DNA of 44,860 bases, taken from contig CAIKWE010000011.1 of the NCBI GenBank assembly GCA_903831085.1, positions 1-44,860 of the forward strand, in the 5' to 3' direction. Numbering within the stretch: the first letter of the stretch is position 1; each line of letters opens with the position of its first letter. The notes beneath the pieces are model-generated. The model saw only the letters and a program-made list of their open reading frames with translations. It was not told the DNA's origin and did not search any database. The position numbers and the translations under genes were made by a program. Of the stretch, positions 24 to 40,770 are shown in pieces. The stretch comes from an uncultured Verrucomicrobiota bacterium. Lineage in GTDB: Bacteria > Verrucomicrobiota > Kiritimatiellia > Kiritimatiellales > Tichowtungiaceae.

Positions 24-3000
24 CTAAAGTCCTCCTGATTCCACCCGTTCCGTGGTTGCGACGGCATACATTTTTCCGGTCTCATCCAGCAAAGCGGTCG
101 AGATAATCGAAACCTTCACGACCGCGCCTCGTTTGGTGATCCGTTCGGTGCGATACGGCTCCAGAATTTTTGCCTGACCCAACTGGATCAGCTTGGCCAG
201 CGCGTCCTTGCGCAGGGATTCGGGAATCCGGTCGCGCACGTTCATCTTCAGCGCCTCGGCCTCGCTCCAGCCGTACATCCGCACCGCGCCCGGATTCCAG
301 GCAAGGGTTTGGCCCTTCAAATCCTGCACCGTGATGGCATCGTGCGCATCGCGCACCACCACCGCCAGACGGAGCAGTTCATTGGCTTTTTGCAGTGCTT
401 CCCGCGTCCGCACCACCTCGGTGATCTCCACAAAGGTCATCACGGCGCCCTCGATCACATTGGCGAGCGTCCGGTACGGCTGAATGCGCAGCGTGTACCA
501 CTTGCTCGCCGTGGTCTGCACGTCCACCTCTTTGGGAATCAGCGTGTCCAGCACCGCCTGCGTATCCGCCACCAGATGGTCGTAGTCCTTCAGGTTGGAA
601 ACAATGTGCGCCACCGGACGCCCCGCATCGGCCGGGATCAGATTGATGATCTCGCTGACGGTCGGCGTGAAGCGCATGATGCGCAGTTGATGATCCACAA
701 AGACGGTGGCGATCCCGGTACCGGACAGCAGGTTGTTCATGTCGTTATTGGCCCGCGTCAGATCCAGCATCTTGATTTGCAGTTCGGTGTTAACCGTGGA
801 GAGCTCTTCGTTGACCGATTGCAGTTCCTCCTTGGAGGTTTCCAGCTCCTCGTTGGTGGATTGCATTTCCTCGTTCACCGACTGCAATTCCTCGTTGGAC
901 GATTTGAGCTCTTCGTTGGAACTCTGCATTTCCTCGTTCGCGCTCTGGAGATATTCCTCCTTGGCGCGCAATTCCTGCTGGAGCGCCGCAATGCGCACAT
1001 CTACGGATTTTTCTCCGTGTGGGGTCACACGGCCTACAGGTGCGTCGTCCATGTCTTCTGTAGGCCGGGTGACCCCACCCGGCGTTTCTTCCAGAATGAC
1101 CAGAAAGAGCGGCGCCTCCGGCGACGCGCCAGCGCCGGTCGTCACGGGGCGAACCGTCAGGTTGACGGTGGTGAAATGGCCGTTAGTTTTAACGCGCAGT
1201 CCCGGATGGCACACCGTCTCTTTAATTCCGACGGCTTTGTGCAGAGCTATGGTCAGTTCGTTGCGCAATCCTTCACGAGCCATTTTCAGAATGTTGTTGA
1301 TGCCCGTTTCGCCGGAAGCCAGCTCCAGAAATAGGCCGGTGCGACCATGAAGATAGAGAATGTCGCCGTGCCCGTTAACCAGCGCGCCCGCCGCGATGAC
1401 CTGCTGTAAAAGCGCCTGTTCGGTCAGCTCGCGCAGCGGTAGTTTTTCAGAGAAGACCTGCTTTCCGGCGACTCGCGACGGAAGCGCCACGTCCACCGCT
1501 GTCAGGATCGGAACAAAATGGTCGATGGCCGCGCGCCGTATGCCGATAAAATCTTCTTTGCGCTGATAAATCTTTTGTTTGCTGTCCAGCGCGGCAAACA
1601 GCCCGTTGAAATCGCCGGTGGTTTCAGACGTGCCCAGAAAGAGCACACCGCCCGGATTCAGCGCGTAGTGAAACAGCGGAATGAGTTTCTTCTGCAACGT
1701 ACTGCCCATATAGATCATGACGTTGCGGCAGCTGATCAGGTCGAGCTTCGAGAACGGCGGATCTTTGACCATGTCCTGCTCGGAAAAGATCACCATATCG
1801 CGGATGCCTTTATGGATGCGGTAGGTGTGGCCGCCGGGCTCGAGCGTGAAAAAGCGGGCCAGCCGTGCGGGCGAGATGTCGGCGGCGATACTGGCCGGAT
1901 AAATCCCGGCGCGGGCGGTGGCGATAGCCTGACGGTCGATATCGGTGGCGAAGACCTGAATCGCGAAACCTTTTTTCCGCGCCTCCATGCCTTCCGCCAG
2001 CAGAATGGCGAGGGAATAGGCCTCCTCGCCGGTCGAGCAGCCCGTCGACCAGACGCGGATCGCGGACTCCTCGCGCTTATTGGCAAAAATCTTTGGAACC
2101 ACCTTTTCTTCCAATATCCGGAAGGCCTCCGGATCGCGGAAGAAATTGGTCACGCCAATCAGCAGGTCGCGGAAGAGCGCTGTCACCTCGGCGGAATTCT
2201 GTTGCAGGTACTTGACGTAGCCGTCGATCGATTCGATCTGGTTGATGGCCATGTGCCGTGCGATGCGCCGGTCGATAGTGTTCGGTTTGTAGTGGGAAAA
2301 GTCGTGACCGGTCTGGGCGCGCAACAGGACGAAGATTTTCTTCATCGCGGTCTCGGGCAGGTGTTCCGTGGTGATGACCATCAGGAAGGAGTTGCTGAAA
2401 GTATGAGCCGCATACGCCATGATTCTGTCCGGCATTTCTTTGGGCAGAAGTTCAAAGTCCACCAGACCGGTGGCGATGGCGCTGCACGGCATCCCGTCGT
2501 ATTCGGCGGATTCAGGCTTTTGAGCCACAACCAGTCCGCCTTCGCCCTTGATGGCCCGTATGCCCGCGGTGCCGTCACTGCCGGTGCCGGAAAGCACAAC
2601 ACCGATCGCCCGCTCGTGCTGATCGTTCGCCAACGACCGGAAGAAAAAGTCGATCGGCAACCGCTGACCGCGCGGCGCAGCGGGTTCCAACAGCTGAAGC
2701 GTTCCGTTGATAAACGCCATGTCGCGATTGGGCGGGATGATATAGACGCAGTTAGGCTGAACCGTCATCCCGTCCTCGACCTCAAATACCGGCATGCGGG
2801 TGTAGCGCCGGATCAGGTCGGTGAGGATGCTCGTATGGTCTGGAGCCAGATGCTGAACCAGCACAAAGGCCATACCCGGATTCGCGCCAGCGGGCATCCC
2901 GGAAAAGAACGCCTCAAACGCCGCCAGCCCGCCAGCCGATGCGCCTATTCCAACGATTGGAAATCCGCTCGGAAGTGCGGCGGGTTCGGCCTCAGTTGCC

Positions 3001-3047
3001 TGAGCTTTTTGTTTCGGTTTTGGAGCGGTTTCTTTCTTCTTCGTCAT
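24..3047 (-). CDS. CheB-CheR-PAS hybrid chemotaxis-type signalling protein
   Basis: A 1007-residue cytoplasmic protein. The CheB methylesterase domain (about residues 28-215) has the catalytic triad in place: Ser37 in GIGASAGG, His66 in VQHLAP, Asp158 in SGTGSDG. A CheR methyltransferase follows (about 235-500) with SAM-site motifs STGCSTGEEAYS, FATDID and LISCRNVMIY. Next come a glutamate-rich coiled coil (about 680-750, EELQS/NEEL repeats), a PAS domain (about 755-870) and a second PAS/PAC domain to the end. There is no histidine-kinase or receiver domain, so output probably passes to another protein, perhaps the gene starting at 21. An in-frame palindromic repeat encodes residues about 655-678 in the linker before the coiled coil. 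The palindrome at 2948-2962 overlaps the codons of the first CheB strand. A GGGGAA ribosome site precedes the ATG. Confidence 0.93.
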   Translation of the reverse strand: MTKKKETAPKPKQKAQATEAEPAALPSGFPIVGIGASAGGLAAFEAFFSGMPAGANPGMAFVLVQHLAPDHTSILTDLIRRYTRMPVFEVEDGMTVQPNCVYIIPPNRDMAFINGTLQLLEPAAPRGQRLPIDFFFRSLANDQHERAIGVVLSGTGSDGTAGIRAIKGEGGLVVAQKPESAEYDGMPCSAIATGLVDFELLPKEMPDRIMAYAAHTFSNSFLMVITTEHLPETAMKKIFVLLRAQTGHDFSHYKPNTIDRRIARHMAINQIESIDGYVKYLQQNSAEVTALFRDLLIGVTNFFRDPEAFRILEEKVVPKIFANKREESAIRVWSTGCSTGEEAYSLAILLAEGMEARKKGFAIQVFATDIDRQAIATARAGIYPASIAADISPARLARFFTLEPGGHTYRIHKGIRDMVIFSEQDMVKDPPFSKLDLISCRNVMIYMGSTLQKKLIPLFHYALNPGGVLFLGTSETTGDFNGLFAALDSKQKIYQRKEDFIGIRRAAIDHFVPILTAVDVALPSRVAGKQVFSEKLPLRELTEQALLQQVIAAGALVNGHGDILYLHGRTGLFLELASGETGINNILKMAREGLRNELTIALHKAVGIKETVCHPGLRVKTNGHFTTVNLTVRPVTTGAGASPEAPLFLVILEETPGGVTRPTEDMDDAPVGRVTPHGEKSVDVRIAALQQELRAKEEYLQSANEEMQSSNEELKSSNEELQSVNEEMQSTNEELETSKEELQSVNEELSTVNTELQIKMLDLTRANNDMNNLLSGTGIATVFVDHQLRIMRFTPTVSEIINLIPADAGRPVAHIVSNLKDYDHLVADTQAVLDTLIPKEVDVQTTASKWYTLRIQPYRTLANVIEGAVMTFVEITEVVRTREALQKANELLRLAVVVRDAHDAITVQDLKGQTLAWNPGAVRMYGWSEAEALKMNVRDRIPESLRKDALAKLIQLGQAKILEPYRTERITKRGAVVKVSIISTALLDETGKMYAVATTERVESGGL
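1013..1085. repeat. In-frame double-hairpin palindromic element, family A copy 1
   Basis: Two 25-base arms (1015-1039 and 1058-1082) form an imperfect inverted repeat around a 18-base loop. Each arm contains its own hairpin: CCGTGTG/CACACGG around GGGT (1015-1032) and CCGGGTG/CACCCGG around ACCC (1065-1082). CCTACAG and CTGTAGG join them as a central stem. It lies wholly inside the cheBR coding sequence and keeps the frame open, giving residues of the form PGGVTRPT...VGRVTP. The second copy is at 27427-27489 in the PfkB kinase gene, in the same reading frame. Confidence 0.9.
2948..2962. repeat. TTCCAA-N3-TTGGAA palindrome, site 1
   Basis: Exact core with spacer CGA, inside cheBR. On the coding strand it reads FPIVG, overlapping a conserved CheB strand that leads into the catalytic GIGAS motif. 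The DNA motif therefore uses conserved residues rather than an insertion. Confidence 0.9.
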
Positions 3048-5287: not shown

Positions 5288-5387
5288 CCGAAACAAGCGC
5301 ACGTTCTCCGAGTTTACCTCATTTTTGGTTTTATCCTGGCGCCTACAGCGGCTACTCTGCCTGCCTGATTTTAACCGGAGGAATTCG

Positions 5388-6995
5388 ATGCTCACAAAAC
5401 GTCCTGAATGGAAGGAGCTTTCCAAACATTGGAAAAAGATCGAATCGAAGCACTTGCGCGATCTGTTTGCCGCCGACCCGCAGCGCGCTGAAACTTTTTC
5501 ACTGACCGCCTGCGACCTGCTTTTGGACTACTCGAAGAATCGCGTCACGGACGAGACCATGCGTCTGTTGGTAGAACTGGCCGAGGCGGCGGAATTGCGC
5601 GCAAAAATTGAAGCGATGTTCACCGGCGAGAAGATTAACCGCACGGAAGACCGCGCGGTGCTCCATACGGCGCTCCGCGCACCGCGCACCGCCAAAGTGC
5701 TGGTTGACGGCGAAGACGTCATGCCCGGTATTCATGCCGTGCTCGATCAGATGGAGGCGTTCTCAAACCGCATTCGTTCCGGTGCTTGGAAAGGTCATGC
5801 CGGCAAGCCGATCAAGAATATCGTCAACATCGGCATTGGCGGTTCAGATCTCGGCCCCGTCATGGCCTATGAAGCGCTCAAGCCGTATTCGCAGCGCAAT
5901 CTGACGATCCGTTTTGTTTCCAATGTGGACGGCACGCATATCGCCGAGACCGTGCGCGATCTGAACGCCGACGAGACGCTGTTCATCGTCGCTTCCAAAA
6001 CCTTCACCACGCAGGAAACTATGACCAACGCCGAGACGGCGCGGACGTGGCTGCTGGCGGCGCTGAAAGACAAATCCGCCGTCGCTAAACATTTCGTGGC
6101 GCTTTCCACCAACGCCGCCGAGGTTTCGAAGTTTGGGATTGATACAGCCAATATGTTCGGTTTCTGGGACTGGGTCGGCGGCCGTTACTCGCTCTGCTCG
6201 GCGATCGGTCTGCCGGTGATGATCGCGATCGGCCCGGAAAACTTCCGTAAGATGCTCGCCGGTTTCCATGCGATGGATTGTCATTTCCGCATCGCGCCGT
6301 TTGAGAAAAACATGCCGGTCATCCTCGCGCTGCTCGGCATCTGGTATAACAACTTCTTCGATGCCGCCACGCAGGCGATCCTGCCGTATGACCAGTATCT
6401 GAGCCGCTTCGCCGCCTACTTCCAGCAGGGCGACATGGAATCGAACGGCAAGTCCATCACACAGGACGGCAGGCGTGTGGAGTGGCAGACCGGCCCGGTG
6501 ATTTGGGGGGAGCCCGGAACTAACGGTCAGCACGCTTTCTATCAGCTGATCCATCAGGGCACCAAGCTGATCCCGTGCGATTTCATCGGTTTTGCCAAAT
6601 CACAGAATCCGCTGGGCGACCACCACGCCAAACTGATGGCCAACTTCTTCGCGCAGACCGAGGCTCTCGCCTTTGGAAAAACTGCGGAAGAGCTGAGGGC
6701 GGAAAAGACGCCTGCCGAACTGATCCCTCACAAAACCTTCGAAGGCAACCGTCCGACCAACACCATCATGGCGGAAAAACTGACGCCGGAAGTGCTTGGC
6801 CAGCTTATTGCCCTCTACGAACACAAAATCTTCACGCAGGGCATGATCTGGGACATCTTCTCCTTCGACCAGTGGGGCGTGCAGCTCGGTAAAGTTCTGG
6901 CATCCGCCATTCTGCCGGAACTGACTGGCGATTCGAAGCTCAAGCACGATACCTCCACCAACAAGCTGATCCAATGGTTTCGCGCTCATAGATGA
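5388..6995 (+). CDS. pgi: Glucose-6-phosphate isomerase
   Basis: A 535-residue enzyme interconverting glucose-6-phosphate and fructose-6-phosphate in glycolysis and gluconeogenesis. It carries the family signatures [14 protein letters not shown] and [14 protein letters not shown], the sugar-phosphate loop ([18 protein letters not shown]) and the GDMESNGKS region. Length matches the E. coli-type enzyme. The frame is open further upstream, but ATG 5388 is chosen because GGAGGA (5377-5382) sits 5 bases before it and homology starts there. A TTTCCAA-N3-TTGGAAA palindrome occupies codons about 11-16. Confidence 0.96.
5419..5435. repeat. TTTCCAA-N3-TTGGAAA palindrome, site 2
   Basis: Perfect 7+7 palindrome with spacer ACA, 31 bases inside the pgi coding sequence, read as SKHWK. 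Confidence 0.9.
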
Positions 6996-9520: not shown

Positions 9521-9537
9521 TTTCCAAGGGTTGGAAA
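9521..9537. repeat. TTTCCAA-N3-TTGGAAA palindrome, site 3
   Basis: Perfect 7+7 palindrome with spacer GGG, 5 bases after the clpC stop. It is the only exact site in an intergenic region. No T-run follows, so it is not an intrinsic terminator. Confidence 0.9.
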
Positions 9538-9608: not shown

Positions 9609-10445
9609 ATGAAAACAATTGCCATACTGGGAACGGGGCTGATGGGTTCGTCGCTGGGTCTCGCGCTGAAAAAGCGTGGGGTTCCGGTGCTCATCCACGC
9701 CTATGCACGGCGCGCCGAGACCCGCGAAGCCGCGCTGAAACTCGGTGTCGCCGACGCTGTTTTTGACGATCCGGCGAAAGCGGTCAAAGATGCCGATTTG
9801 GTTGTTCTCTGTGTGCCGGTTTTGACGATTCCTGAACTGGCGAAGGCTTGCCGCGCCGGTCTCAAGCCCGGCGCTATTCTTACCGACGTTGGAAGCACCA
9901 AAGCCTGTCTGAATACGCTGATGGCGAAGGCGCTGGAAGGAACCGGCACGGAATTTATCGGTTCGCACCCGATCTGCGGCTCCGAACAGCAGGGTATCGA
10001 GGCGGGCGATGCGGATTTATACGAAGGCGCCGTGACCGTCGTGACGCCGACCGCGCAGGCGGACAAGGCTTCTGTTGAAAAAGTTTCCAACCTTTGGAAA
10101 AGTGCAGGATCGTCGGTGACGGTCATGGATGCAAAACAGCACGATGCTGTTCTGGCGGCGACCAGCCATCTGCCGCATGTGGTTGCGGCGGCGCTGGCGC
10201 TTTCGGCCGGTGACAACGGCCTGTTTTGCGGCAGCGGTTTTCGCGATACAACCCGCATTGCGGACGGATCGCCGCAGGTCTGGAGCGATATTGTCTGCAC
10301 CAATGGTCCTGCGCTGAAGGTGGCCTTAAAAAATTTCCGCGAGAATCTGGATGAACTGGCAACGTTGCTCGATGAGGGCAATGGCGAAAAACTGGCCGAC
10401 TGGTTTGCCGCCGCCCGTGACAAACGCAAGGAGCTTCTCGGTTAA
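9609..10445 (+). CDS. tyrA: Prephenate dehydrogenase
   Basis: A 278-residue NAD(P)-dependent dehydrogenase of tyrosine synthesis (prephenate to 4-hydroxyphenylpyruvate). A Rossmann glycine motif GTGLMGSSLG is at residues 8-17. The prephenate-site motif GSHPICGSEQQGI is at about 118, and SHLPHVVAAAL follows. It is the stand-alone form, without a chorismate mutase or ACT domain. It heads the tyrA-aroA-cmk/plsC-proS cluster and its stop overlaps the aroA start (TAATG). The TTTCCAA palindrome at 10084-10100 is read as SNLWK. Confidence 0.93.
   Translation: MKTIAILGTGLMGSSLGLALKKRGVPVLIHAYARRAETREAALKLGVADAVFDDPAKAVKDADLVVLCVPVLTIPELAKACRAGLKPGAILTDVGSTKACLNTLMAKALEGTGTEFIGSHPICGSEQQGIEAGDADLYEGAVTVVTPTAQADKASVEKVSNLWKSAGSSVTVMDAKQHDAVLAATSHLPHVVAAALALSAGDNGLFCGSGFRDTTRIADGSPQVWSDIVCTNGPALKVALKNFRENLDELATLLDEGNGEKLADWFAAARDKRKELLG
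10084..10100. repeat. TTTCCAA-N3-TTGGAAA palindrome, site 4
   Basis: Perfect 7+7 palindrome with spacer CCT, inside tyrA, read in the SxxWK frame. Confidence 0.9.
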
Positions 10446-11752
10446 TGCACACAAAAACGGTTTATCCTGTTTCAACATTCGGCGGCGAATTGCGCGTTCC
10501 CGGTGATAAGAGCGTTTCGCAGCGGATCGCCATGCTGGCGGCGCTGGCGAAAGGCACGTCGGAGGTGAGTGGTTTTCTGCGCGGCGAAGATGCAATGAGC
10601 ACGATGAGCGCCATGTGCTCGCTGGGCGCATCGGCAAAGTTCGAAGGCGACATTCTGAAAATTACCGGAACGGGCGGAAAGTTCAAAGAGCCTGCCAATC
10701 CGTTGGATATGGGCAATTCCGGTACCGGCACACGTCTGCTGGCGGGTTTGCTGGCCGGACAGAAGATGACGGTGACGATGACAGGCGACGCATCGCTTTC
10801 GCGCCGTCCGATGGGCCGCATTAAAACGCCGCTGGAGCTGATGGGTGCGCAGATCGAACTGACGGGCGAAAAGGGCACGTTGCCGATGACGGTTCGCGGC
10901 ACGCCGCTGCGCGGCATCCGCTATGAGTTGCCGATGGCTTCGGCGCAGGTAAAATCGTGTGTGCTGCTGGCCGGACTTTTTGCGGAAGGCAAGACGACGG
11001 TGATCGAGCCGCGCCCGACGCGCGACCATACCGAAAAACTTTTCCAAACCTTGGGAATTCCTCTGCATATCGACGGACTGGAAATCAGTCTGAACGGCTT
11101 CGGCCCGAACGGTCCGCAGATTACAGCCCGTAGGCTGACGGTGCCGGGCGATTTTTCGAGCGCGGCGTTCTGGATCGCCGCCGTTGCAGCCCGTCCAGGC
11201 GCGGAACTGATTGTGCGAGGCGTTGGCCTGAATCCGCGTCGCACGGCGCTGCTGGATGTACTGAAGCGGATGGGCGCACTGATTAAAACAGAGATTGTCG
11301 AGGATCATGGCGACCCGATCGGTACGGTTTTTGTGCGCGGCGCGAAGTTGCGCGGTACGGAAATCGGCGGCGATGAAATTCCTAATTTAATTGATGAACT
11401 GCCGATGCTGGCGGTGACGGGCGCGCTGGCAAACGGCGATACGGTGATCCGCGACGCGGCGGAGCTGCGGGTGAAGGAGTCGGACCGTATTGCGGTGACG
11501 GCGGAACATCTACGGGCGTTTGGTGTGGATGTGAAGGAGCATGCGGACGGCATGACGGTGCGCGGTCCGGCGAAACTGCACGCACCGCCGGAACCGCTGG
11601 CGTCGCACGGCGACCACCGGATTACGATGTCGATGGCGATGCTGGCGACGTTTGCCGATGCTCCGGTTAAACTGGAGCAGGTGGAGTGCGTGGCGACATC
11701 ATATCCCGATTTCTGGAACCATTTGGAACAGCTGGGCGGAAAGGTTGAATGA
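10445..11752 (+). CDS. aroA: 3-phosphoshikimate 1-carboxyvinyltransferase (EPSP synthase)
   Basis: A 435-residue shikimate-pathway enzyme joining shikimate-3-phosphate and phosphoenolpyruvate. It shows the PGDKS motif (Lys22), GNSGTGTRLLAGLLAG (about 92-107), RRPMGRIKTPL and LRVKESDRI (about 342-350). The start overlaps the tyrA stop by one base and the stop overlaps the next ATG (ATGA), so the cluster is translationally coupled. The pairing with tyrA makes this an aromatic amino acid segment. Confidence 0.96.
   Translation: MHTKTVYPVSTFGGELRVPGDKSVSQRIAMLAALAKGTSEVSGFLRGEDAMSTMSAMCSLGASAKFEGDILKITGTGGKFKEPANPLDMGNSGTGTRLLAGLLAGQKMTVTMTGDASLSRRPMGRIKTPLELMGAQIELTGEKGTLPMTVRGTPLRGIRYELPMASAQVKSCVLLAGLFAEGKTTVIEPRPTRDHTEKLFQTLGIPLHIDGLEISLNGFGPNGPQITARRLTVPGDFSSAAFWIAAVAARPGAELIVRGVGLNPRRTALLDVLKRMGALIKTEIVEDHGDPIGTVFVRGAKLRGTEIGGDEIPNLIDELPMLAVTGALANGDTVIRDAAELRVKESDRIAVTAEHLRAFGVDVKEHADGMTVRGPAKLHAPPEPLASHGDHRITMSMAMLATFADAPVKLEQVECVATSYPDFWNHLEQLGGKVE
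11041..11055. repeat. Near-match TTCCAA-N3-TTGGGA palindrome
   Basis: One mismatch from the core (TTGGGA for TTGGAA), spacer ACC, inside aroA, read as FQTLG. Confidence 0.6.
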
Positions 11753-25220: not shown

Positions 25221-27017
25221 TCAGTTCGCCTCAAGAGCTTCCTGCCGCTGACGCAGAATTGTTTTGGATGTCCCGCAGAGATGCGGATCGCGGTACGGAA
25301 TGCCCCGACGCTCATCAAAGCTTCCAATGATTGGAAAATTCAAATCTTGCGGGCGTTTGGCGGCGATGGTGCCGTTGCCCATCTGATGTCCCGGTTTCGT
25401 TTCGCCAATCAAAAATCCGGCCTCCCGCATCGCGCCGCGCACCGGCAGCGAAGAGGAATAGGTCAGCAAAACGCCGTCCAGCTTCATCACGCGGTAAAGC
25501 TGCTGGAAAAATTCCACTGTCCATAGCTCCGGACAGTGCTGGCTCGAAAACGGATCGTGGAAGACGATATCGAATGACTCGCTTTCCAAACCTTGGATGA
25601 GCCAGCGGGCGTCGCCCCACCGGATTGCCAATTGATGATTGCCACTTCGTTGCCCCGTGTTCGCGGAGCCCAGCTCGCCAGAGGCTCGGTTGCCGATTGC
25701 CGATTGGTTGGACGTTAAGAGCCCCCGAAGAACTTTTCTCCAGTCAACCGGATCGGTTTCCAAACATTGGAAAAATTCCGAAGCGGCGCGGACGACGCGT
25801 TTATCCATTTCCAGCGCGGTGACGTCCAGCCGGTGTTTTGCGCCTGCCGCCGCGCAGAACGCCGCCAGTGAGTTGTTTCCGAGTCCGAAGCAGACATCGA
25901 GAAGTTTCAGGTTCGAGGTTTTAAGTTTTAAGCCCAAGCCGGATGGCTCGACGAATTTTTTCTGTGCTTCCAGCCGCGCGCCGCTCTTCGTGTGGTAGTG
26001 CTCTTTCCAGTCCTCGCTGAAAAACGTGATCGAACCATCATCGGTGATGACCGGCAAGGTGGAAGAGGCTTCCAGCCTCTGGCCAGCGGCAGGGATGCCG
26101 CTTCCACACAAATCGCCCTGCCGGACTTCGCGCATTTCCATTTGTTGGATGACATAATCAAGAAACTGTCCTTTCTCAAGGTGCCAGTGCGGGGCGACCA
26201 GATCTTCATCCGGCGTGTCGGTCGAAATGCGCATGACCGGAATATCGGCAGGAATGCGGCGCAGGAAGTCCATCAGCGCTTCGGCATATTCCCAGTGGTT
26301 CAACACCGACGGCGGATTTTTCGCCAATTCTGTTCCTTTGATGATATGCAGATTGTGAATCTTGATTCCGGCAATCGGCAAGGTGGCCAGTTCTTCCGCC
26401 GTGCGGTTCCAATCCTTGGAAACTTCATTTGGTAGTCCAATGATCACATGCGGCGCAACATGGATGCCGCACTCTGCCAGATCGAGAATGGCTTTTTTGC
26501 TGCACGCCCAGTCGTGACCGCGGTTAATCCGCTTGAGTGTTTCGTCATTCGCTGTCTGCACGCCGAGTTCCACCCACACTTCGACTTTTTCCTTCAGCGC
26601 TTCCAGAAAACGGAGCGCTGCTTCCGGCAGACAGTCGGGGCGCGTTCCGATGCTGATGGCCTCAAATTTTATGTTTCCCGCACGTTGAGGAAAAACACTG
26701 TGCCCCGACGCAGTCGGTTCCAGGCATTGGAAAATCAGTTTCTGCTGGGCCGGATCGGTCAGGTCAGCGGTGAAAGCCTGAATGTAGAGCATCAGCTTCT
26801 GCGCCTTGTAGCGCCGTTTCGAAAATTTGATCGCCGCTTCAATCTGCTCGACCAGACTTTCCTGTCGCTGTGTCTGCTGAGCCCGCGAACCGTTTTCGGA
26901 ACAGAATGAACAGCGGCCGTGCGGACAACTACTGGCAATTTCGACCGGAACCCGGAACAGCGCGTCGCCGTACCGCTCAATCATCCATTGTTTGTATTGT
27001 GTAAAAGGTGAGATCAT
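25221..27017 (-). CDS. Radical SAM (MnmL/YtqA-like) fused to MnmD-type tRNA wobble-uridine methyltransferase
   Basis: A 598-residue two-domain protein. Residues 1 to about 303 match the YhcC/YtqA (TIGR01212) radical SAM family: Fe-S cysteines Cys31, Cys36 and Cys39, then SIGTRPDCLPEAAL, VWVELGVQTANDETLKRINRGH and GIKIHNLHIIKGTELA. Residues about 321-598 match the methyltransferase part of MnmC/MnmD: DDGSITFFSEDWKEHYHTKS, LDVCFGLGNNSL, then FHDPFSS...ELWTVEFFQQLYR and GAMREAGF. In Bacillus, MnmL is reported to convert cmnm5(s2)U34 to nm5(s2)U34 and a separate enzyme methylates it, so this fusion may do both steps. ATG 27017 is chosen over an upstream TTG lying in the repeat at 27022. Several repeat insertions and five palindrome sites lie within it. 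Confidence 0.85.
   Translation of the reverse strand: MISPFTQYKQWMIERYGDALFRVPVEIASSCPHGRCSFCSENGSRAQQTQRQESLVEQIEAAIKFSKRRYKAQKLMLYIQAFTADLTDPAQQKLIFQCLEPTASGHSVFPQRAGNIKFEAISIGTRPDCLPEAALRFLEALKEKVEVWVELGVQTANDETLKRINRGHDWACSKKAILDLAECGIHVAPHVIIGLPNEVSKDWNRTAEELATLPIAGIKIHNLHIIKGTELAKNPPSVLNHWEYAEALMDFLRRIPADIPVMRISTDTPDEDLVAPHWHLEKGQFLDYVIQQMEMREVRQGDLCGSGIPAAGQRLEASSTLPVITDDGSITFFSEDWKEHYHTKSGARLEAQKKFVEPSGLGLKLKTSNLKLLDVCFGLGNNSLAAFCAAAGAKHRLDVTALEMDKRVVRAASEFFQCLETDPVDWRKVLRGLLTSNQSAIGNRASGELGSANTGQRSGNHQLAIRWGDARWLIQGLESESFDIVFHDPFSSQHCPELWTVEFFQQLYRVMKLDGVLLTYSSSLPVRGAMREAGFLIGETKPGHQMGNGTIAAKRPQDLNFPIIGSFDERRGIPYRDPHLCGTSKTILRQRQEALEAN
25322..25337. repeat. TTCCAA-N3-TTGGAAA palindrome, site 5
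   Basis: Exact core with spacer TGA, in the MnmD-like domain, read as FPIIG on the minus strand. Confidence 0.88.
25583..25597. repeat. Near-match TTTCCAA-N3-TTGGA
   Basis: The left arm is complete and the right arm stops at TTGGA (then T). Spacer ACC. In the MnmD-like domain, read as IQGLE. Confidence 0.6.
25624..25710. repeat. Low-complexity direct-repeat insertion in the MnmD-like domain
   Basis: Short direct repeats (ATTGCCA/ATTGCCG-like units near 25624, 25638, 25691 and 25698) surround an 80-base segment that encodes residues about 437-465. The encoded protein segment is Ser/Asn/Gly-rich and lies between a helix and the GDARW strand, where the MnmC family has a variable loop. It looks like an inserted intergenic-type repeat that stayed in frame. 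Confidence 0.45.
25757..25773. repeat. TTTCCAA-N3-TTGGAAA palindrome, site 6
   Basis: Perfect 7+7 palindrome with spacer ACA, in the MnmD-like domain, read as FQCLE on the minus strand. Confidence 0.9.
25901..25932. repeat. AAGTTTCA-type repeat within the mnmL-mnmD gene
   Basis: Degenerate tandem units of the form AAGTTTCAGGTTCGAGG then TTTTAAGTTTTAAG encode LKLKTSNLKLL before the SAM-binding strand. A related sequence (GGTTTCAAGTTCCAAGTTTC, 44462-44481) lies between cysE and tRNA-Pro. Confidence 0.4.
26059..26107. repeat. In-frame double-hairpin palindromic element, family B
   Basis: An outer stem GTGGAAG (26059-26065) / CTTCCAC (26101-26107) encloses two hairpins: AGGCT-TCC-AGCCT (26066-26078) and GCGGCA-GGGA-TGCCGC (26086-26101). 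It encodes residues about 304-320, exactly at the junction between the radical SAM and MnmD-like domains. The architecture resembles family A although the sequence differs. Confidence 0.8.
26407..26422. repeat. TTCCAA-N3-TTGGAAA palindrome, site 7
   Basis: Exact core with spacer TCC, in the radical SAM domain, read as SKDWN on the minus strand. Confidence 0.88.
26718..26732. repeat. Near-match TTCCAG-N3-TTGGAA
   Basis: One mismatch in the left arm, spacer GCA, in the radical SAM domain, read as FQCLE on the minus strand, the same residues as at 25757. Confidence 0.6.
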
Positions 27018-27021
27018 TTTT

Positions 27022-27101
27022 ACAGAAGGTAACAAAGGTTAACGGAGGATGTTCATAAAGCGTGCATCCACACTCCTTTGTTTTCCTTCGTTTCCTTCTG
27101 T
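27022..27101. repeat. ACAGAAGG inverted-repeat element, copy 1
   Basis: Left arm 27022-27038 (ACAGAAGGTAACAAAGG) and a longer right arm 27075-27101 (CCTTTG...CCTTCTGT) form an imperfect inverted repeat. It fills the whole gap between the mnmL-mnmD start codon and the pfkB-type stop codon. Copy 2 is at 28733-28811. Confidence 0.75.
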
Positions 27102-28069
27102 TAGGATTCTTCCATTTTGATTTGCGGGACGAGGACGGCGATCTGTCCGGGGTTCACAACGCCCGGCTCAATATTCATGGCGTTGGAGGTGCCGCAGGCG
27201 AGGCCGAAGACAAATGCCTCAACCAGTGAATGACCTTTGGCCAGCGCGTAGGCGGTTCCGGCGCTGACAGCGTCGCCGCTTCCGATCGGATTAAGCGCTT
27301 TAATCTGCGGAACGGTGAAGGTGTACGACGCGCCGGGAATAAACAGCATGGCCGGCGCTTTGCCCTGTGTAATGCCGACAGCGCCCGCACCCTGCGACAT
27401 CAGTTCTTCCGCCAGCTCTTTGATTTCGCCGGGTGAGGTCACCCGGCCTACAGTGCCGGTTTTTGTAGGCCGGGTGACCGCACCCGGCGTCTTAATGGTT
27501 AACGCCAATTCTTCCGCATTAATCTTCACCACGGCGGGACGGTGTTTCAGCGCGGCGAGCAGCGGCGCTCCATACGTATCGAGCAGAACCTTTTTACCGT
27601 CGGTCAGCGAAAGCAGTTCGGCGTAAATATTCTGCGGCGCATGCGGTGGCAGATTGCCGGAAAAAACAATGCGGTCAAAATCGCCTTGGAGTCCGGCGAA
27701 GGTTTTGACGAACGCTTTCCATTCGCTGGCGGAGAGCGGCGCGGTGTTTTCGACCAGCTCGGTGCAGCCGTCGTAGTCACCGGAAAGCAGCGTCTGACAG
27801 ATGCGGGTTTCGGCCTTGGTTTCGACCCAGCGGCAGGGAAGCTGTTCCTTTTCGAGCAGATCGCGGACAATATCGCCGTTGCTGCCACCGGCGAAACTCA
27901 GCATCAGCGGGGAGCCGCCGAGAATTTTGAGCACCTGGGCAGTATTGGTCGCCTTGCCGCTGGCGGCGATGGAAACCTTGCGGGCGCGGTTCACCTCGCC
28001 GGGCCGGAACGAGTCGTACTCGATCGTGCGCTGGAGCGCCGGAAAAAATCCACAGCAGAGTATTTTCAT
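27101..28069 (-). CDS. PfkB-family sugar kinase, 1-phosphofructokinase/tagatose-6-phosphate kinase type
   Basis: A 322-residue ribokinase-fold kinase of the FruK/LacC branch, phosphorylating a hexose phosphate with ATP. It shows the N-terminal strand of the family, the ASGKATNTAQVLKILGG motif, VFSGNLPPHAP, VVKINAEEL (the NxxE motif region) and the catalytic NPIGSGDAVSAGTAYAL with its Asp base. The substrate (fructose-1-P or tagatose-6-P) cannot be decided. An in-frame palindromic element encodes residues about 194-215, in a surface loop just after the NAEEL helix. No clear ribosome site precedes the ATG, and no PTS genes are adjacent. Confidence 0.88.
   Translation of the reverse strand: MKILCCGFFPALQRTIEYDSFRPGEVNRARKVSIAASGKATNTAQVLKILGGSPLMLSFAGGSNGDIVRDLLEKEQLPCRWVETKAETRICQTLLSGDYDGCTELVENTAPLSASEWKAFVKTFAGLQGDFDRIVFSGNLPPHAPQNIYAELLSLTDGKKVLLDTYGAPLLAALKHRPAVVKINAEELALTIKTPGAVTRPTKTGTVGRVTSPGEIKELAEELMSQGAGAVGITQGKAPAMLFIPGASYTFTVPQIKALNPIGSGDAVSAGTAYALAKGHSLVEAFVFGLACGTSNAMNIEPGVVNPGQIAVLVPQIKMEES
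27427..27489. repeat. In-frame double-hairpin palindromic element, family A copy 2
   Basis: Two 26-base arms (27427-27452 and 27464-27489) are complementary with one mismatch around an 11-base loop. Each arm holds a perfect hairpin: CCGGGTG-AGGT-CACCCGG and CCGGGTG-ACCG-CACCCGG. It lies in the PfkB-type gene and is read PGAVTRPT...VGRVTSPGE, matching the protein output of copy 1 in cheBR. Confidence 0.9.
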
Positions 28070-33975: not shown

Positions 33976-34587
33976 ATGGAAAAATTTAAAACATTTACAG
34001 GGGTGGTCGCCGGTGTGGATCGCGCAAACATTGATACCGACGCGATTATTCCGAAGGAATACCTCAAGTCGATTAAGCGGACAGGGTTCGGCGCCGCGCT
34101 TTTTTCCGACTGGCGTTACAAAAACGACGGCTCGGATAATTCGAGCTTTGTGCTGAATAAACCGGAAACCGCCGGCGCGCAGGTTCTGGTAGCGCGTAAC
34201 AATTTCGGCTGCGGATCAAGTCGCGAACACGCCGTCTGGGCGGTTCAACAGTACGGCTTTAAGGTGGTTATCGCTCCGCGACAGGACGACGTTCCGGCCT
34301 TTGCCGATATTTTCCGCGGCAACTGCGGAAAGAACGGATTGCTGACGATTGAGATGACCGCCACGCAGGTGAATGAGATTTTCCAAGCATTGGAAAAAGA
34401 GCCGGGCGTTAAAGCCACGGTGAATCTGGATGCGCAGACCGTCATGATTCACGTAAAGGGCGGTGACAAGGTTTATCCATTCAGCGCCGATCCGGTGCTT
34501 CGGAACAAGCTGTTGAATGGTCTGGACGATATCGCCCAGACGCTCCAGTATGCGGCCGACATTGCGGCGTATGAAGCGCGGCACTAA
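33976..34587 (+). CDS. leuD: 3-isopropylmalate dehydratase small subunit
   Basis: A 203-residue swivel-domain partner of LeuC: DRANIDTDAIIPKEYLK, NFGCGSSREHAVWAVQQYG and the conserved FRGNCGKNGLL. Length matches the family. GGGAG overlaps the end of leuC and probably serves as its ribosome site. The TTTCCAA palindrome at 34380-34396 is read as FQALE. Confidence 0.97.
   Translation: MEKFKTFTGVVAGVDRANIDTDAIIPKEYLKSIKRTGFGAALFSDWRYKNDGSDNSSFVLNKPETAGAQVLVARNNFGCGSSREHAVWAVQQYGFKVVIAPRQDDVPAFADIFRGNCGKNGLLTIEMTATQVNEIFQALEKEPGVKATVNLDAQTVMIHVKGGDKVYPFSADPVLRNKLLNGLDDIAQTLQYAADIAAYEARH
34380..34396. repeat. TTTCCAA-N3-TTGGAAA palindrome, site 8
   Basis: Perfect 7+7 palindrome with spacer GCA, inside leuD, read as FQALE. 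Confidence 0.9.
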
Positions 34588-34602: not shown

Positions 34603-35637
34603 ATGCAAAACCAGCGCGTGTTGATTCCATTGATCGGCGTCATTGCCTTGGTGATGGTCGGGTTTGTCCTGAAAACGGCGCAGGCCGTTATTCTGCCGCT
34701 GGTCATTGCCTGGTTTCTTTCCTACCTCTTCGCGCCGCCGGTCAACTTTCTGGCGCGGCACCGCGTTCCGACGGGCCCGGCGGTCGCCGTGGTCATGATT
34801 CTGCTGTTCGGGTTTTTCTATCTGACCGGTCTTTTCCTCTATGAGCGCTCGATGGCGTTTGTGGAGGAATATCCGAAATACGCCGATCAGTTCACGCAGA
34901 TCACCGCAGTTGTCGCGGAACGCTATACCATGCCGTCGTGGCTGTCTTTCGGTCAGATTGATTGGAAACAGCAGATCGGACAGCACCTGATTGCCTTTTC
35001 TGGATCCTTCATCACGTTCACCGGTAATCTGGCGATGGTGCTTATTTTTCTGATTTTCATGCTGCTCGGCAAACCGTATTTCGAAAGCAAAATCCAGCGG
35101 GCTTTTCCGGACGCTCAAGGCAAACGCATTGCGACAGTGACTGCTTCTATCGCGGGCCAGATCAGCCGCTATCTTTATGTTAAACTGCTTCTGAGCACGG
35201 CTTCCAGCCTGCTGGTCTGGATTGTACTCGTTATCGGCAAGTCGGATTTCCCATTCACCTGGGCGGTGCTGACGTTTCTGCTCAGCTTTATTCCAAACAT
35301 TGGAACGGTTGTGGCCTCAATCCCGCCGGTATTGCTGGCGTTCGTGCAGTTCTATCCCAACTTCTGGGTGGCGGCGGGTATTGCGATCGCGCTGCTGATC
35401 ATCCATCAAGTCATCGGCTGCTTTGTTGAACCGAAGGTTCTGGGCGACAAACTCAATCTCAGCCCGATGGCCATTCTGCTCTCGCTGGTTTTCTGGGGCT
35501 GGCTGTGGGGTATCACTGGCGCATTGCTGGCCGTGCCGATCGCCGCCGCGGTCAAAATTGTCTGCGAAAATATCGAAATGCTAAAGCCGGTCGCCGTGCT
35601 GATGGGCGCGGATACGCACGACTCGAACCCGGTGTGA
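34603..35637 (+). CDS. AI-2E/PerM-family membrane transporter
   Basis: A 344-residue membrane protein with about eight hydrophobic segments and an extracytoplasmic or cytosolic region near 85-135. The family motif is LSFIPNIGTVVASIPP, followed by FVEPKVLGDKLNLSPMAIL and the C-terminal WGWLWGITGALLAVP. Substrates of this family vary (autoinducer-2 export, ion antiport) and cannot be assigned. The TTCCAA palindrome at 35291-35305 falls exactly on the conserved IPNIG codons. It lies between leuD and nadC in the same orientation. Confidence 0.88.
   Translation: MQNQRVLIPLIGVIALVMVGFVLKTAQAVILPLVIAWFLSYLFAPPVNFLARHRVPTGPAVAVVMILLFGFFYLTGLFLYERSMAFVEEYPKYADQFTQITAVVAERYTMPSWLSFGQIDWKQQIGQHLIAFSGSFITFTGNLAMVLIFLIFMLLGKPYFESKIQRAFPDAQGKRIATVTASIAGQISRYLYVKLLLSTASSLLVWIVLVIGKSDFPFTWAVLTFLLSFIPNIGTVVASIPPVLLAFVQFYPNFWVAAGIAIALLIIHQVIGCFVEPKVLGDKLNLSPMAILLSLVFWGWLWGITGALLAVPIAAAVKIVCENIEMLKPVAVLMGADTHDSNPV
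35291..35305. repeat. TTCCAA-N3-TTGGAA palindrome, site 9
   Basis: Exact core with spacer ACA, on the conserved IPNIG codons of the AI-2E-family permease. Confidence 0.88.
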
Positions 35638-37975: not shown

Positions 37976-38027
37976 TCAGAACCTTCTGCTCTTTATGGAA
38001 TGTATCCGAGCTCCCGCCGATGAATCT

Positions 38028-38232: not shown

Positions 38233-39180
38233 CTAGACTTTCCGCAGCAGGAGCCAGAGGAAGAACGGTCCGCCGAGCAGTGCGGTGATCAGCCCAGCCG
38301 GCATTTCAACCGGAGCGAGCAGAGTGCGCGCAAGACCGTCGCAGACCACCAAAAACGCTCCGCCGAAAAGAATGACTGCAGGGAAAAGTTTCCGATGATC
38401 GGAGCCGATGAATTGCCGACAGATATGCGGCACCATCAGTCCAACAAACGCGATCGGCCCGCAGAAGGCGACGGCCGCGCCGGTCATCAGTGAAGCGGAG
38501 AAGAACAACATTTTTTTTGTGCGGTCGACATTTACGCCGCGCGCGCCGGCCAGCTCTTCGCCGGTCAGAAGCAGATTCATCTCGCGCGTCAGTAAAGAGG
38601 CGATGATCAGGCCGATCGTCGTAAAGACCGCCAGATGGATCGGCGTGGTGAACCCCACCACCGAAAAGCCGCCCATCAGCCAGCGGATCATGCGGAAAGT
38701 TTCGCCCGGATCGCTGAGATACTGCATCAGCAAAATCAGACTGGAGAAAAATAGATTCACCGCTACGCCAGCCAGCAATAGCGTCGTGGACGAAAATCCG
38801 CTTTTGACCCGCGCCAGTCCGTAGACCAGCAGAACCGTAACAAGCGCGCCGAAAAATCCGGCGATGGAAGCTCCGGCAACACCGGCGAAAAGCAGCGGCG
38901 CGCCGAAACGCATCCAGATGACGGCGCCGAGCGCCGCGCCGCCGGAAACGCCGAGAGTGTCCGGCGTCGCCAGCGGATTGCGAAAGAGCGCCTGAAAAAT
39001 CATGCCGCTGGCCGACAGCGCGATACCTGCCAGAAACGCCGTCAGCACGCGCGGAATCCGCAGTTTCATCAGAATCTCTCGACCCATCGGATCGTGCAGC
39101 ACATCGGTGCTTCCAATCATTGGAAACACAAGGAGCGTTGCCAGAGCCAGCAAAGTCAAAATGGTGAATTTTGTTTTCAT
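38233..39180 (-). CDS. btuC: Vitamin B12 ABC transporter permease
   Basis: A 315-residue FecCD/BtuC-family permease with about nine to ten membrane helices. It shows LRIPRVLTAFLAGIALSASG, FRNPLATPDTLGVSGGAALG, MGGFSVVG, and the coupling region with GPIAFVGLMVPHICRQFIG (the EAA-like loop that contacts the ATPase). The B12 assignment comes from the cobalamin riboswitch and btuB at the head of the operon, since the family also serves iron siderophores. The ATG overlaps the btuD stop by 4 bases. It is the last gene of the operon; no clear terminator follows. Confidence 0.9.
   Translation of the reverse strand: MKTKFTILTLLALATLLVFPMIGSTDVLHDPMGREILMKLRIPRVLTAFLAGIALSASGMIFQALFRNPLATPDTLGVSGGAALGAVIWMRFGAPLLFAGVAGASIAGFFGALVTVLLVYGLARVKSGFSSTTLLLAGVAVNLFFSSLILLMQYLSDPGETFRMIRWLMGGFSVVGFTTPIHLAVFTTIGLIIASLLTREMNLLLTGEELAGARGVNVDRTKKMLFFSASLMTGAAVAFCGPIAFVGLMVPHICRQFIGSDHRKLFPAVILFGGAFLVVCDGLARTLLAPVEMPAGLITALLGGPFFLWLLLRKV
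39111..39126. repeat. TTCCAA-N3-TTGGAAA palindrome, site 10
   Basis: Exact core with spacer TCA, near the 5' end of btuC, read as FPMIG on the minus strand. Confidence 0.88.
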
Positions 39181-39938
39181 TGCTCGGATGCCGGGGTGAG
39201 GGTTTCTTTACGGACAAAGGCGGTTTCAAAAAGCTCTTCGAGCGGCGCGGGTTGAATCAATTCCTGCGGTGTGCCGGTGAAGAGAGTCCGACCGTCTTTC
39301 AGGGCGATGATACGGTCGCTCCAGTGGGCGGCGCTGTTGAGGTCATGGTTGACGGCCAGAATGGTTGCGCCGCACTCGACGTTGATTTTTTTCAGCAGCG
39401 TCATCACTTCCGTCTGGTGCCGCCAGTCGAGAAAGGTGGCCGGCTCGTCGAACAGCATGACCGGTGTTTCCTGCGCCAGCGCGGCGGCGATGTAAACTTT
39501 CTGTCGCTCTCCGCCGGAGAGTGTACGAAGCGTCCGGCTTCTGAATTGCGCCGTGCCGGTGATTTGCAGCGCCCGCTCGACGGCATCGTCGTCGCGTTTT
39601 TGCGCTGGCGACAGCGCAGACAGGTAAGGGTAGCGGCCCATCATGACAAAGTCATAGACCGTGAGAGGAAACTCGATATCGTGCGTTTGCGGAACATAGC
39701 TGACCTGCCGCGCCAGCGCACGGCTGTCATAACTGCGGCATTCGGTTCCGCCGATTTTCGCCGAGCCTTTGTGCGGATACATGCCAAGCAGACAGCGCAG
39801 CAGGGTGGTTTTGCCCGCGCCGTTCGGGCCGATGATTGAAACATATTCGCCTTCGGTGACCGAAAACGAAACCCCGCGCAGGATTGGCGTTCCGTTCAGT
39901 TCAAGTGCAAGGTTTTCAATCTGGATGGCATTATTCAT
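39177..39938 (-). CDS. btuD: Vitamin B12 ABC transporter ATP-binding protein
   Basis: A 253-residue ABC ATPase: Walker A GPNGAGKTT (37-45), Q-loop YVPQTHDI, signature LSGGERQKVYIAAALAQ, Walker B VMLFDEPATFLD and switch His in AVNHDLN. It powers the BtuC permease. ATG 39938 is chosen because homology starts at MNNAIQIENL; it overlaps btuF by 8 bases. An in-frame start further upstream would run into btuF. Confidence 0.92.
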   Translation of the reverse strand: MNNAIQIENLALELNGTPILRGVSFSVTEGEYVSIIGPNGAGKTTLLRCLLGMYPHKGSAKIGGTECRSYDSRALARQVSYVPQTHDIEFPLTVYDFVMMGRYPYLSALSPAQKRDDDAVERALQITGTAQFRSRTLRTLSGGERQKVYIAAALAQETPVMLFDEPATFLDWRHQTEVMTLLKKINVECGATILAVNHDLNSAAHWSDRIIALKDGRTLFTGTPQELIQPAPLEELFETAFVRKETLTPASEQ

Positions 39939-40770
39939 GGAGGGCTTTGGCGAAATCTTCGAGAAGGAGAACAAAACGGGGACCCGGAATCCAGGCGTAA
40001 TCGTTGGTCATCACGACGGCGCGATACGGTTTCCAAGCATTGGAAGTGAAGTTTCCGATGTTTGCCGGCCGCTTGCTTGCGCCAGCGAGCGACGCGGGAA
40101 GAATATCGATGACCACATCAGGCCGCATGGTTGTGAGCCCTTCGGGCGATATTTCCGGATATCCTCCGGAGCTCTCGCAGGCGTTGACGCCACCGGCACA
40201 TTCGATCAGTTCGTCATAGAAGGTTCCTTTGGCGGCGACATACATCCGGCTCAGACTTTCGTCGTGTCCAACGCAGACAAGCACTTTTGGTTTCCGACCT
40301 TCGGGAAAAATTCTGTGCTCTGACGCAGTCAGTTCCAAGGTTTGGAAAAGTTCATGTGCTTTTGTTTCTGCGCCGCAGGCTTTGCCGATGGTGAGGATCG
40401 ATTGCATAATTTCAGCGATGTGTTCGTGTGAAACGCCGATGAAGCCGATGCCGAGCGCTTTGAGCTGTGTTTCAGTTTCCTTTTGCGTTGTGAGGCCGAT
40501 GACGAAGTCGGGCTGCAGCGCGACAATCATTTCCCAGTTCGGATCGTAGAGCCCGCCGACGGAAGGTTTGTTAGTGACGTCGGGCGGGTAGGAGCAGAAC
40601 CGGCTGACGCCGACGACTTCGTTGCTGAGGCCGAGCGCATAAAGAATTTCGGCGGTGCTGGGTGCCATGGCGACCACGCGCAGTCCGGCGTGCGGCTTCT
40701 GCGTAGTCCGCTCCCCGCACCCGGCGAGGAGCAGGGCGGCGGCGAGTAAAGTCATCAGGCTGGTTTTCAT
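39931..40770 (-). CDS. btuF: Vitamin B12-binding lipoprotein
   Basis: A 279-residue class III periplasmic binding protein with a lipoprotein signal (LLLAGC, Cys18) where E. coli BtuF is soluble. Motifs are VVAMAPSTAEILYALGLSNEVVGVSRFCSYP, split here as the two ends of one helix-strand unit, then GGLYDPNWEMIVALQPDFVI and PDVVIDILP. Its start overlaps the btuB stop by one base (TAATG). The gene contains two exact TTCCAA palindromes, read as FQTLE and SNAWK. Confidence 0.88.
   Translation of the reverse strand: MKTSLMTLLAAALLLAGCGERTTQKPHAGLRVVAMAPSTAEILYALGLSNEVVGVSRFCSYPPDVTNKPSVGGLYDPNWEMIVALQPDFVIGLTTQKETETQLKALGIGFIGVSHEHIAEIMQSILTIGKACGAETKAHELFQTLELTASEHRIFPEGRKPKVLVCVGHDESLSRMYVAAKGTFYDELIECAGGVNACESSGGYPEISPEGLTTMRPDVVIDILPASLAGASKRPANIGNFTSNAWKPYRAVVMTNDYAWIPGPRFVLLLEDFAKALHE
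40030..40045. repeat. TTTCCAA-N3-TTGGAA palindrome, site 11
   Basis: Exact core with spacer GCA, in the 3' part of btuF, read as SNAWK on the minus strand. Confidence 0.88.
40333..40348. repeat. TTCCAA-N3-TTGGAAA palindrome, site 12
   Basis: Exact core with spacer GGT, in the middle of btuF, read as FQTLE on the minus strand. Confidence 0.88.

Follow-up and report, generated by a model that had tools for sequence, protein, structure and literature searches.

HIP1 (GCGATCGC) of the cyanobacteria is described as a highly repeated palindrome that also occurs within genes, is patchy in its distribution and has an unsettled function (PMC4390886). The DUS of the Neisseriaceae and the USS of the Pasteurellaceae are described as present in hundreds to thousands of copies in coding and intergenic DNA, including terminators, and as occurring in dialects (PMC3630211). 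Lrp/AsnC operators, as these accounts present them, are 13-17 bp inverted repeats that lie on the same face of the DNA two or three turns apart, and are degenerate and clustered at target promoters (PMC2995911, PMC10201364). In Streptomyces, the GATC-binding nucleoid protein Gbn is reported to be sequence-specific and to bind more than 2,800 regions (PMC9239103). For the word analysed here, no earlier description was found in the literature among the matches listed.

The word has the consensus (T)TTCCAA-N[G/C]N-TTGGAA(A), with 12 fixed bases, a 3-base spacer and a core, TTCCAA-N3-TTGGAA, of 15 bp. The first-pass annotation claimed 12 exact cores in the window (the whole stretch of DNA analysed, 44,860 nt), and all 12 are present (Table 1), against a mean of 0.01 in dinucleotide shuffles, with none of 100 shuffles reaching 12. 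Six were placed correctly and six lie one base further on (5420, 9522, 10085, 25758, 34381 and 40031); its three near matches are also there with one mismatch each, that at 26718 as given and the other two at 11042 and 25584. Eleven of the 12 exact sites were said to be inside genes, and 11 do fall in ORFs with Pfam matches. At the 25758 site four named relatives also carry the word with other spacers, and at the 26407 site two named relatives carry it with another spacer. Of 259 arm pairings, 258 have k=3 and 1 has another k within the range 0 to 14, and in the window TTCCAA-Nk-TTGGAA is present at k=3 only when k is scanned from 0 to 29. Of 296 sites, 289 have G or C at the spacer centre. 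The proposed 17-base palindrome is strict in its core, but its flanking T/A is a preference only: in the own-genome sample, 84 of 112 arms have T at -1. Change occurs in one arm without compensation in the other, the letters rather than the pairing being kept: variants with the same change in both arms number 6, 4, 1 and 1 in four samples, against 67, 36, 44 and 58 single-arm variants.

Table 1. Exact and one-mismatch copies of the word in the 44,860-nt window.
Feature	Position	Location	ORF strand
Exact site	2948..2962	CheB-CheR ORF 24-3047	-
Exact site	5420..5434	phosphoglucose isomerase ORF 5325-6995	+
Exact site	9522..9536	between ClpB/ClpC-like ORF (end 9515) and prephenate dehydrogenase ORF (start 9609)	
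Exact site	10085..10099	prephenate dehydrogenase ORF 9609-10445	+
One-mismatch site	11042..11056	EPSP synthase ORF 10445-11752	+
Exact site	25322..25336	radical-SAM/methyltransferase ORF 25221-27035	-
One-mismatch site	25584..25598	radical-SAM/methyltransferase ORF 25221-27035	-
Exact site	25758..25772	radical-SAM/methyltransferase ORF 25221-27035	-
Exact site	26407..26421	radical-SAM/methyltransferase ORF 25221-27035	-
One-mismatch site	26718..26732	radical-SAM/methyltransferase ORF 25221-27035	-
Exact site	34381..34395	aconitase C-terminal-domain ORF 33976-34587	+
Exact site	35291..35305	AI-2E-type transporter ORF 34603-35637	+
Exact site	39111..39125	FecCD-type permease ORF 38233-39180	-
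Exact site	40031..40045	periplasmic-binding-protein ORF 39931-40770	-
Exact site	40333..40347	periplasmic-binding-protein ORF 39931-40770	-

The word is dispersed, as had been proposed, and not confined to this locus: its own genome holds 379 exact sites against 1 for the reversed control word. Its range is a single class, assumed to be Kiritimatiellia, in which counts are very uneven; at least 10 sites are present in 63 of 193 genomes of the class, with a maximum of 3,044, and 0-5 per listed genome in other classes of the phylum. Within the genus, counts range from 62 to 793, and this tenfold spread suits drive as well as function. Placement along the chromosome of the own genome is as expected of random placement in 10-kb bins (29 bins, mean 1.83, variance 1.79), and even spacing is rejected. 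For this reason the stretches of 11.1-25.3 kb and beyond 40.4 kb, which the first-pass annotation singled out as empty, need no explanation.

Most sites of the own-genome sample lie inside genes, and sampled coding DNA holds 33 sites against 0.79 in codon shuffles, far above expectation. With this excess and the spread beyond the locus, neither result that the first-pass annotation named as refuting its reading was obtained. The word is indeed used in all three reading frames with codons fitted to it: at the third codon positions of the 12 fixed bases, 681 of 792 (0.86) are identical to orthologs of site-rich relatives, against a background of 0.51 in the same comparison and 100 of 198 (0.51) in the spacer. 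The word is kept in these orthologs, 198 comparisons giving 106 exact copies, 44 with one mismatch and 48 with two or more. Within genes, conservation is at the level of DNA and the spacer is free, which shows that a DNA-level constraint steers codon choice and, in conserved enzymes, even residues. The earlier view that this is not a copied element also stands, since the coding sites lie in aligned codons with no gap at the site in 313 of 336 ortholog comparisons (a gap in 23) and the DNA between neighbouring palindromes varies from locus to locus; a copied inserted unit is accordingly rejected. One insertion was seen, an array within a 24-base stretch missing from 6 of 8 orthologs. In G403, the richest genome, the sites show no preference for gene orientation: 5 of 6 convergent, 6 of 8 divergent and 7 of 16 tandem gene gaps are occupied. 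Genic and intergenic shares in the samples are approximate, as genes were called with a simple custom caller, and genic counts are slightly low, the 2948 site for instance being called non-genic because the caller chose a later start. By this caller, 6 of 7 sites in G056 are in genes, contrary to the trend of the five-genome sample. In each of G449 and G032, one copy of the word lies in an apparent intrinsic terminator stem.

The strongest clue to mechanism, absent from the first-pass annotation, is the helical phasing of neighbouring sites in most sampled lineages. Distances between neighbours are mostly whole helical turns, at 31/32 bp and also at 22, 42, 52, 63, 74, 84 and 94 bp, with a period of about 10.4 bp. 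Over distances of 16-130 bp, Rayleigh power at 10.45 bp is 15.6 in the own genome (n=20), 29.7 in genus relatives (n=35), whose stretches share inherited pairs and include one (L087) picked for holding arrays, and 120.9 in the rest of the class (n=159), where several stretches were picked because they hold arrays. When distances below 34 bp are dropped the respective values are 6.7, 16.1 and 31.6, and with distinct distances only the genus set gives 11.1 (n=15). Phasing is lost beyond 130 bp in the own genome (0.51, n=20). The sample from G159, a genome of 1,177 sites, has no phasing at 16-130 bp (0.99, n=15), and across that whole genome exact pairs at 30-32 bp begin at only 11 sites. The own genome as a whole has 13 such pairs, where simple arithmetic on site counts predicts about 0.2, and G403 has 1,103, where it predicts about 4; the reversed control has 0.

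The presence of a fixed word kept inside genes and its recurrence at whole turns point to protein binding along the chromosome. We infer reading by a protein, acting as a cooperative dimer in an architectural role, and we see about an even chance that the word is the genome-wide docking site of such a putative protein of the class with a chromosome-wide role. This putative reader would be a two-fold symmetric DNA-binding protein, dimers of which would occupy dispersed sites singly and would touch on one DNA face where sites are whole helical turns apart, mostly three. Its role would likely be chromosome-wide, in architecture or broad silencing, and not the control of one regulon. Sites would arise mostly via base substitution where tolerated, would be kept by selection or drive at the DNA level, and would decay in lineages that no longer use the word. 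More tentatively, the word may constitute a sequence-coded chromatin, in which the strict palindrome marks where dimers dock and whole-turn spacing marks where they polymerise on or wrap DNA. Selection or drive would have distributed such a palindrome along the whole chromosome, codons included, at a density that varies among lineages from zero up to about 0.45 sites per kb; the hosts' phages would carry it too. Among three candidate families (RAYT, Lrp/AsnC and ComEC) compared across 193 class genomes, none explains site counts and the reader was not found. In favour of docking are the strict symmetry and arm spacing, the G/C centre, the uncompensated arm changes, the third-position identity, the coding excess, the phasing and the gap occupancy in G403. 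Counting against it, besides the missing reader, are the unphased sample of G159, the loss of phasing beyond 130 bp in the own genome, the picking of array-bearing stretches, the inherited pairs of the genus set and the spread of counts within the genus.

The main rival to docking, which we consider unlikely, is that the word is a signal for DNA uptake or recombination which has spread by molecular drive: competent cells would favour DNA bearing it, and it would build up wherever it can be tolerated, whether in codons, gaps, terminators or prophages. Site density and the tolerance of coding sites are consistent with this, as are the lineage-specific spacers that resemble dialects, the near all-or-none state of the orthologs and the copy inside a terminator stem; Neisserial uptake sequences are described as likewise dispersed, also in terminators (PMC3630211). 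A ComEC-family protein (PF03772) is present in 61 of 63 genomes with at least 10 sites, but 118 of 130 site-poor genomes have it as well, a similar share (p 0.15 in a 2x2 table of the 193 genomes, tallied by eye and ignoring relatedness), and neither G118 (271 sites, 94% complete) nor G458 (24 sites, 65% complete) yielded a match. Uptake alone, moreover, gives no prediction of whole-turn spacing. We also count against it that, to our knowledge, known DNA uptake sequences are not palindromes.

It is doubtful that the word is just the ordinary operator of a single global transcription factor such as an Lrp-type regulator. Lrp dimers are described as reading imperfect inverted repeats of 13-17 bp, two or three turns apart on one face (PMC2995911), and the word, at 15 bp and with spacings of 22 and 31/32 bp, has this geometry. 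The comparison covered presence of the family in the 193 class genomes and then 40 fetched genes. PF01037 is present in 62 of 63 genomes with at least 10 sites against 102 of 130 with fewer (p 8e-5, from a 2x2 tally by eye of 193 genomes ignoring relatedness), and sites lie at most 300 bp upstream of a PF01037 gene in 4 of 5 fetched genus genomes and in G403. However, relatedness confounds this class-wide association, site-free genomes have this protein too, its recognition helix is not constant across the members of the genus that have the word in common, and among the other 15 fetched site-rich genomes (non-genus, G403 included) upstream sites occur only in G403. Convergent gaps and mid-gene positions are also occupied, and the arrays of low-count genomes adjoin unrelated genes (judged by eye), so that no regulator emerged. 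NrdR boxes are another 31-32 bp geometry.

Very unlikely is a HIP-like by-product, in which a methyltransferase acting on the word would bias mismatch repair and so turn near matches into exact ones. Such a mechanism has been proposed for HIP1 (Elhai 2015, PMC4390886), and the near all-or-none ortholog state would fit it; phasing, however, is not predicted. A methyltransferase site of twelve fixed bases around a 3-base spacer would also be a long one.

REP/RAYT elements and RNA hairpins, like the Lrp-type protein of the class, fit poorly. REP-type palindromes mobilised by RAYT transposases are a highly improbable source: the word is palindromic, denser between genes and found in arrays, one of them in the 24-base stretch described above, and other repeats resembling true REPs exist in these genomes, but the aligned codons, the rarity of gaps and the varying intervening DNA argue against it, and the RAYT family (PF01797) is present in 58 of 63 genomes with at least 10 sites against 109 of 130 with fewer (p 0.18, 2x2 over 193 genomes by eye, relatedness ignored), while neither G151 (183 sites) nor G386 (111 sites) yielded a match. 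RNA hairpins or transcription terminators have the slightest chance of all, for although the palindrome could self-pair and the copies in G449 and G032 lie in apparent terminator stems, RNA pairing is rejected on the uncompensated arm changes, and the phasing tracks the DNA helix and own-genome sites are mostly inside genes.

The observation made in the first-pass annotation is confirmed, on a larger scale than that annotation saw, and its interpretation partly supported: its likening of the word to HIP described the abundance well, and it missed the class restriction with uneven counts, the nearly fixed G/C centre and the helical phasing, the last of which is new here. Iterated genomic words such as HIP1 are still without an agreed function. 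This word carries its own clue in its phasing, and the idea of a protein-docking code is therefore directly testable. A constraint that steers codons and residues also bears on the reading of the class's protein alignments and gene calls.

Like HIP1, the word is a highly repeated palindrome, in genes too, with a patchy distribution across one bacterial group, and its abundance against the control word and against codon shuffles is that of a HIP; unlike HIP1, it has 12 fixed bases, a free 3-base spacer and a G/C centre, and forms helically phased arrays in most sampled lineages. It resembles the DUS and USS in copy number, in coding and intergenic placement, in its terminator copy and in its dialect-like spacers, and differs in being palindromic and phased and in that site number shows no clear relation to the presence of ComEC. 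In contrast to Lrp/AsnC operators, it is a strict word found throughout the genome irrespective of orientation, and the Lrp-type protein of the class does not track it. REP/RAYT elements are likewise dispersed palindromes that are denser between genes, whereas this word, at the coding sites examined, was formed in place by substitution and shows no clear link to RAYT presence. The sequence-specific nucleoid role reported for Gbn is of the kind proposed for the putative reader of this word; the Gbn word, however, is short, common and, as far as described, not itself enriched (PMC9239103), whereas that of this class is long, enriched and phased.

The 12 exact copies of the palindromic word TTCCAA-N3-TTGGAA that the first-pass annotation had picked out by eye in the window were all confirmed, against a dinucleotide-shuffle expectation of 0.01, and its three near matches are one-mismatch sites. 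The genome of origin (GCA_903831085.1; 2,138,574 bases in 60 contigs) holds 379 sites, versus 1 for a control, the word read backwards. The word is common to many related genomes and not confined to the locus of the window: 63 of 193 genomes of the class Kiritimatiellia have at least 10 sites (site-rich) and 130 have fewer, as counted by eye, with a maximum of 3,044 in G403 (about 6.7 Mb). In a survey of 387 genomes of the phylum the word was matched in 144 and was abundant only in this class, counts outside it being 0 to 5 among the genomes listed. The assignment to Kiritimatiellia rests on the named sequences nearest to one protein of the window, seven MAGs labelled Verrucomicrobiota, Kiritimatiellaeota or Pontiellaceae. 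Counts span 62 to 793 across the 11 genomes of the genus, and both states occur within some genera (G256 110 vs G242 1; G074 170 vs G267 2; G174 151 vs G038 5). G435 and G440 have 376 and 245 sites, and G081, from the genus of the window, has 567 on one contig of 3,882,676 bases, with 54.6% G+C in a 45-kb sample; an excerpt of a published account gives 3.88 Mbp and 53.1% G+C for a cultured relative and 7.40 and 8.66 Mbp for two further genomes (PMC10880615). Three of the five sites of G038 lie in a single stretch (see table) possibly acquired from a site-rich relative. No earlier description of the word was found among the literature matches listed for the word itself, Kiritimatiellia and uptake sequences.

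The two arms are held at a fixed distance, with a spacer of 3 bases found 258 times in four sample groups and any other value from 0 to 14 once. The central base of the spacer is G or C at 289 of 296 sites, and the arms tend to be bordered by T, with A at the opposite end (84/112 in the own-genome sample). The preferred spacer varies by lineage, being ACA in 13 of 56 sites of the own genome and 18 of 63 of its genus relatives, TCA in 32 of 34 in G403, and GCC in 42 of 65 in another genus, g4. In the larger samples the commonest one-mismatch form is A to G at the sixth base (27/67 in the own genome, 23/44 in G159 and 21/49 in g4), with G403 the exception. Changes matched in both arms are rare compared with single-arm variants (6 vs 67 in the own-genome sample; 4 vs 36, 1 vs 44 and 1 vs 58 in the other three), and thus the letters are conserved and base pairing is not.

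That codon choice has adapted to the word, as first proposed from the window, is borne out by codon-preserving shuffles of 250,146 bases predicted as coding in the own genome, where 33 sites were observed and 200 shuffles gave a mean of 0.79 and a maximum of 4; four other genomes gave 23 vs 0.72, 11 vs 0.13, 2 vs 0.04 and 8 vs 0.13. All three reading frames are used, as had been claimed (15, 11 and 8 sites). Conservation in relatives likewise acts at the level of DNA. We compared 46 distinct coding sites with genus orthologs in 313 ungapped comparisons (23 gapped ones excluded), in which one column may be counted in both directions; in orthologs from site-rich genomes third codon positions at the fixed bases were identical in 681 of 792 cases, whereas identity was 0.51 over the remaining gene sequence and spacer positions agreed in 100 of 198. 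Corresponding values for site-poor orthologs were 298 of 460, 0.52 and 45 of 115. The word was intact in 106 of 198 site-rich orthologs, with one mismatch in 44 and two or more in 48; among 115 site-poor orthologs 12 had no mismatch and 37 had one, which looks like decay of the word. In the radical-SAM/methyltransferase gene, the window and two relatives encode SEDWK and three others (L028, L029, L031) encode SNDWK with the exact word, this version differing from the window at six bases of which only two, in the E/N codon, alter the protein. At an FQxLE position five genomes carry the word with spacers TGT, TGT, ACT, CCC and ACC.

Density per kb is greater between genes than within them in all five genomes of the shuffle test (0.61 vs 0.13 in the own genome; 4.83 vs 0.04 in G403), although in G056, against this trend, six of seven sites lie within called genes. 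In G403, of the intergenic gaps 40 bases or longer, those between convergent genes carried a site (no more than one mismatch) in 5 of 6 cases, those between divergent genes in 6 of 8 and those between tandem genes in 7 of 16, so the word is no promoter feature in that genome. G449 and G032 each have one copy within a putative intrinsic terminator stem.

Neighbouring sites are helically phased, their distances clustering at 22, 31/32, 41-43, 52/53, 62-64, 73/74, 83/84 and 93-95 bp (best-fitting period 10.4 bp), with some off the period (e.g. 17, 35, 37, 48, 59 and 67). Rayleigh power at 10.45 bp over 16-130 bp was 15.6 in the own genome (n=20), 29.7 in genus relatives (n=35) and 120.9 in the rest of the class (n=159), and 6.7, 16.1 and 31.6 with distances below 34 bp removed, in samples that include inherited pairs common to the genus relatives and, outside the own genome, several stretches selected for holding arrays. 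At 131-400 bp the genus relatives gave 22.3 (13.6 for distinct distances) and the own genome 0.5; there was no clear phasing beyond 400 bp, nor in G159, from a neighbouring family (0.99, n=15). A selection-free measure, the whole-genome count of exact pairs at 30-32 bp spacing only, detected such pairs in 64 of the 193 genomes of the class, with 13 pairs in the genome of origin and 1,103 in G403, and none for the backwards control among the matches listed. The sequence between neighbouring palindromes differs at each locus.

A scan of viral contigs for phased pairs returned four stretches on three contigs, and one of these contigs has matches to terminase, major head and transposase proteins. 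Besides four phased intergenic sites, this phage contig has a 130-codon ORF with two exact sites, and the product of the ORF reads FPVVGK, FSNHWK and FQSLEK in order; 31 leaves a remainder of 1 on division by 3, so that a phased array within a gene displays the word in successive frames.

Coordinates of arrays, isolated sites and other repeats
Stretch	Position	Feature	Observation
L144; L145 (phage contig)	3188-3580; 650-767	four phased intergenic sites; two exact sites in the 130-codon ORF	intergenic sites 31, 31 and 41 bp apart
L087 (match in L116)	~10139-10184	phased pair inside a 24-base stretch	present in G449 and G130 (both copies degenerate in G130); absent from six other genus orthologs
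L043 (G038)	1332-1378 and 12182	three sites in one 15-kb stretch	adjoin genes resembling, by eye, a restriction-modification system
Window	25638-25695	other dispersed repeat, matching many places in genus genomes	within radical-SAM gene
Window	26053-26108	as above	within radical-SAM gene
Window	~27421-27492	as above	within ORF 27101-28069

Some of the other dispersed repeats of the window match both strands, and they look like ordinary REP palindromes.

The abundance of sites and their placement regardless of orientation favour a chromosome-wide role. A putative cooperatively binding dimer predicts the combination of strict symmetry, a fixed centre in an otherwise variable spacer, conservation at the level of DNA and distances of whole helical turns. 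Comparison of Lrp/AsnC proteins, the REP transposase RAYT and the competence protein ComEC with site counts across class genomes did not find this putative reader. The presence of RAYT and of ComEC does not clearly follow word abundance. An Lrp/AsnC regulator is the obvious candidate by site geometry, according to an excerpt of PMC2995911, and PF01037 is present in 62 of 63 site-rich genomes and 102 of the 130 others; the word lies at most 300 bp upstream of an Lrp-type gene in 5 of 20 site-rich genomes (a raw count), four of them among the genus's five. This regulator fits poorly as the reader, since genomes without sites have the same protein and the recognition helix varies among genus members sharing the word. 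One Lrp-type gene (L148-L187) is found in 164 of the 193 genomes of the class; the effector domain shows good conservation and the recognition helix is variable even inside the genus, so that DNA binding by the protein may be weak or of another kind. The main rival to the dimer is biased uptake or some other drive, which also fits the uneven counts between genomes, the near all-or-none state of the word in orthologs and its lineage dialects; this rival could operate via the same protein-DNA contact as the putative dimer.
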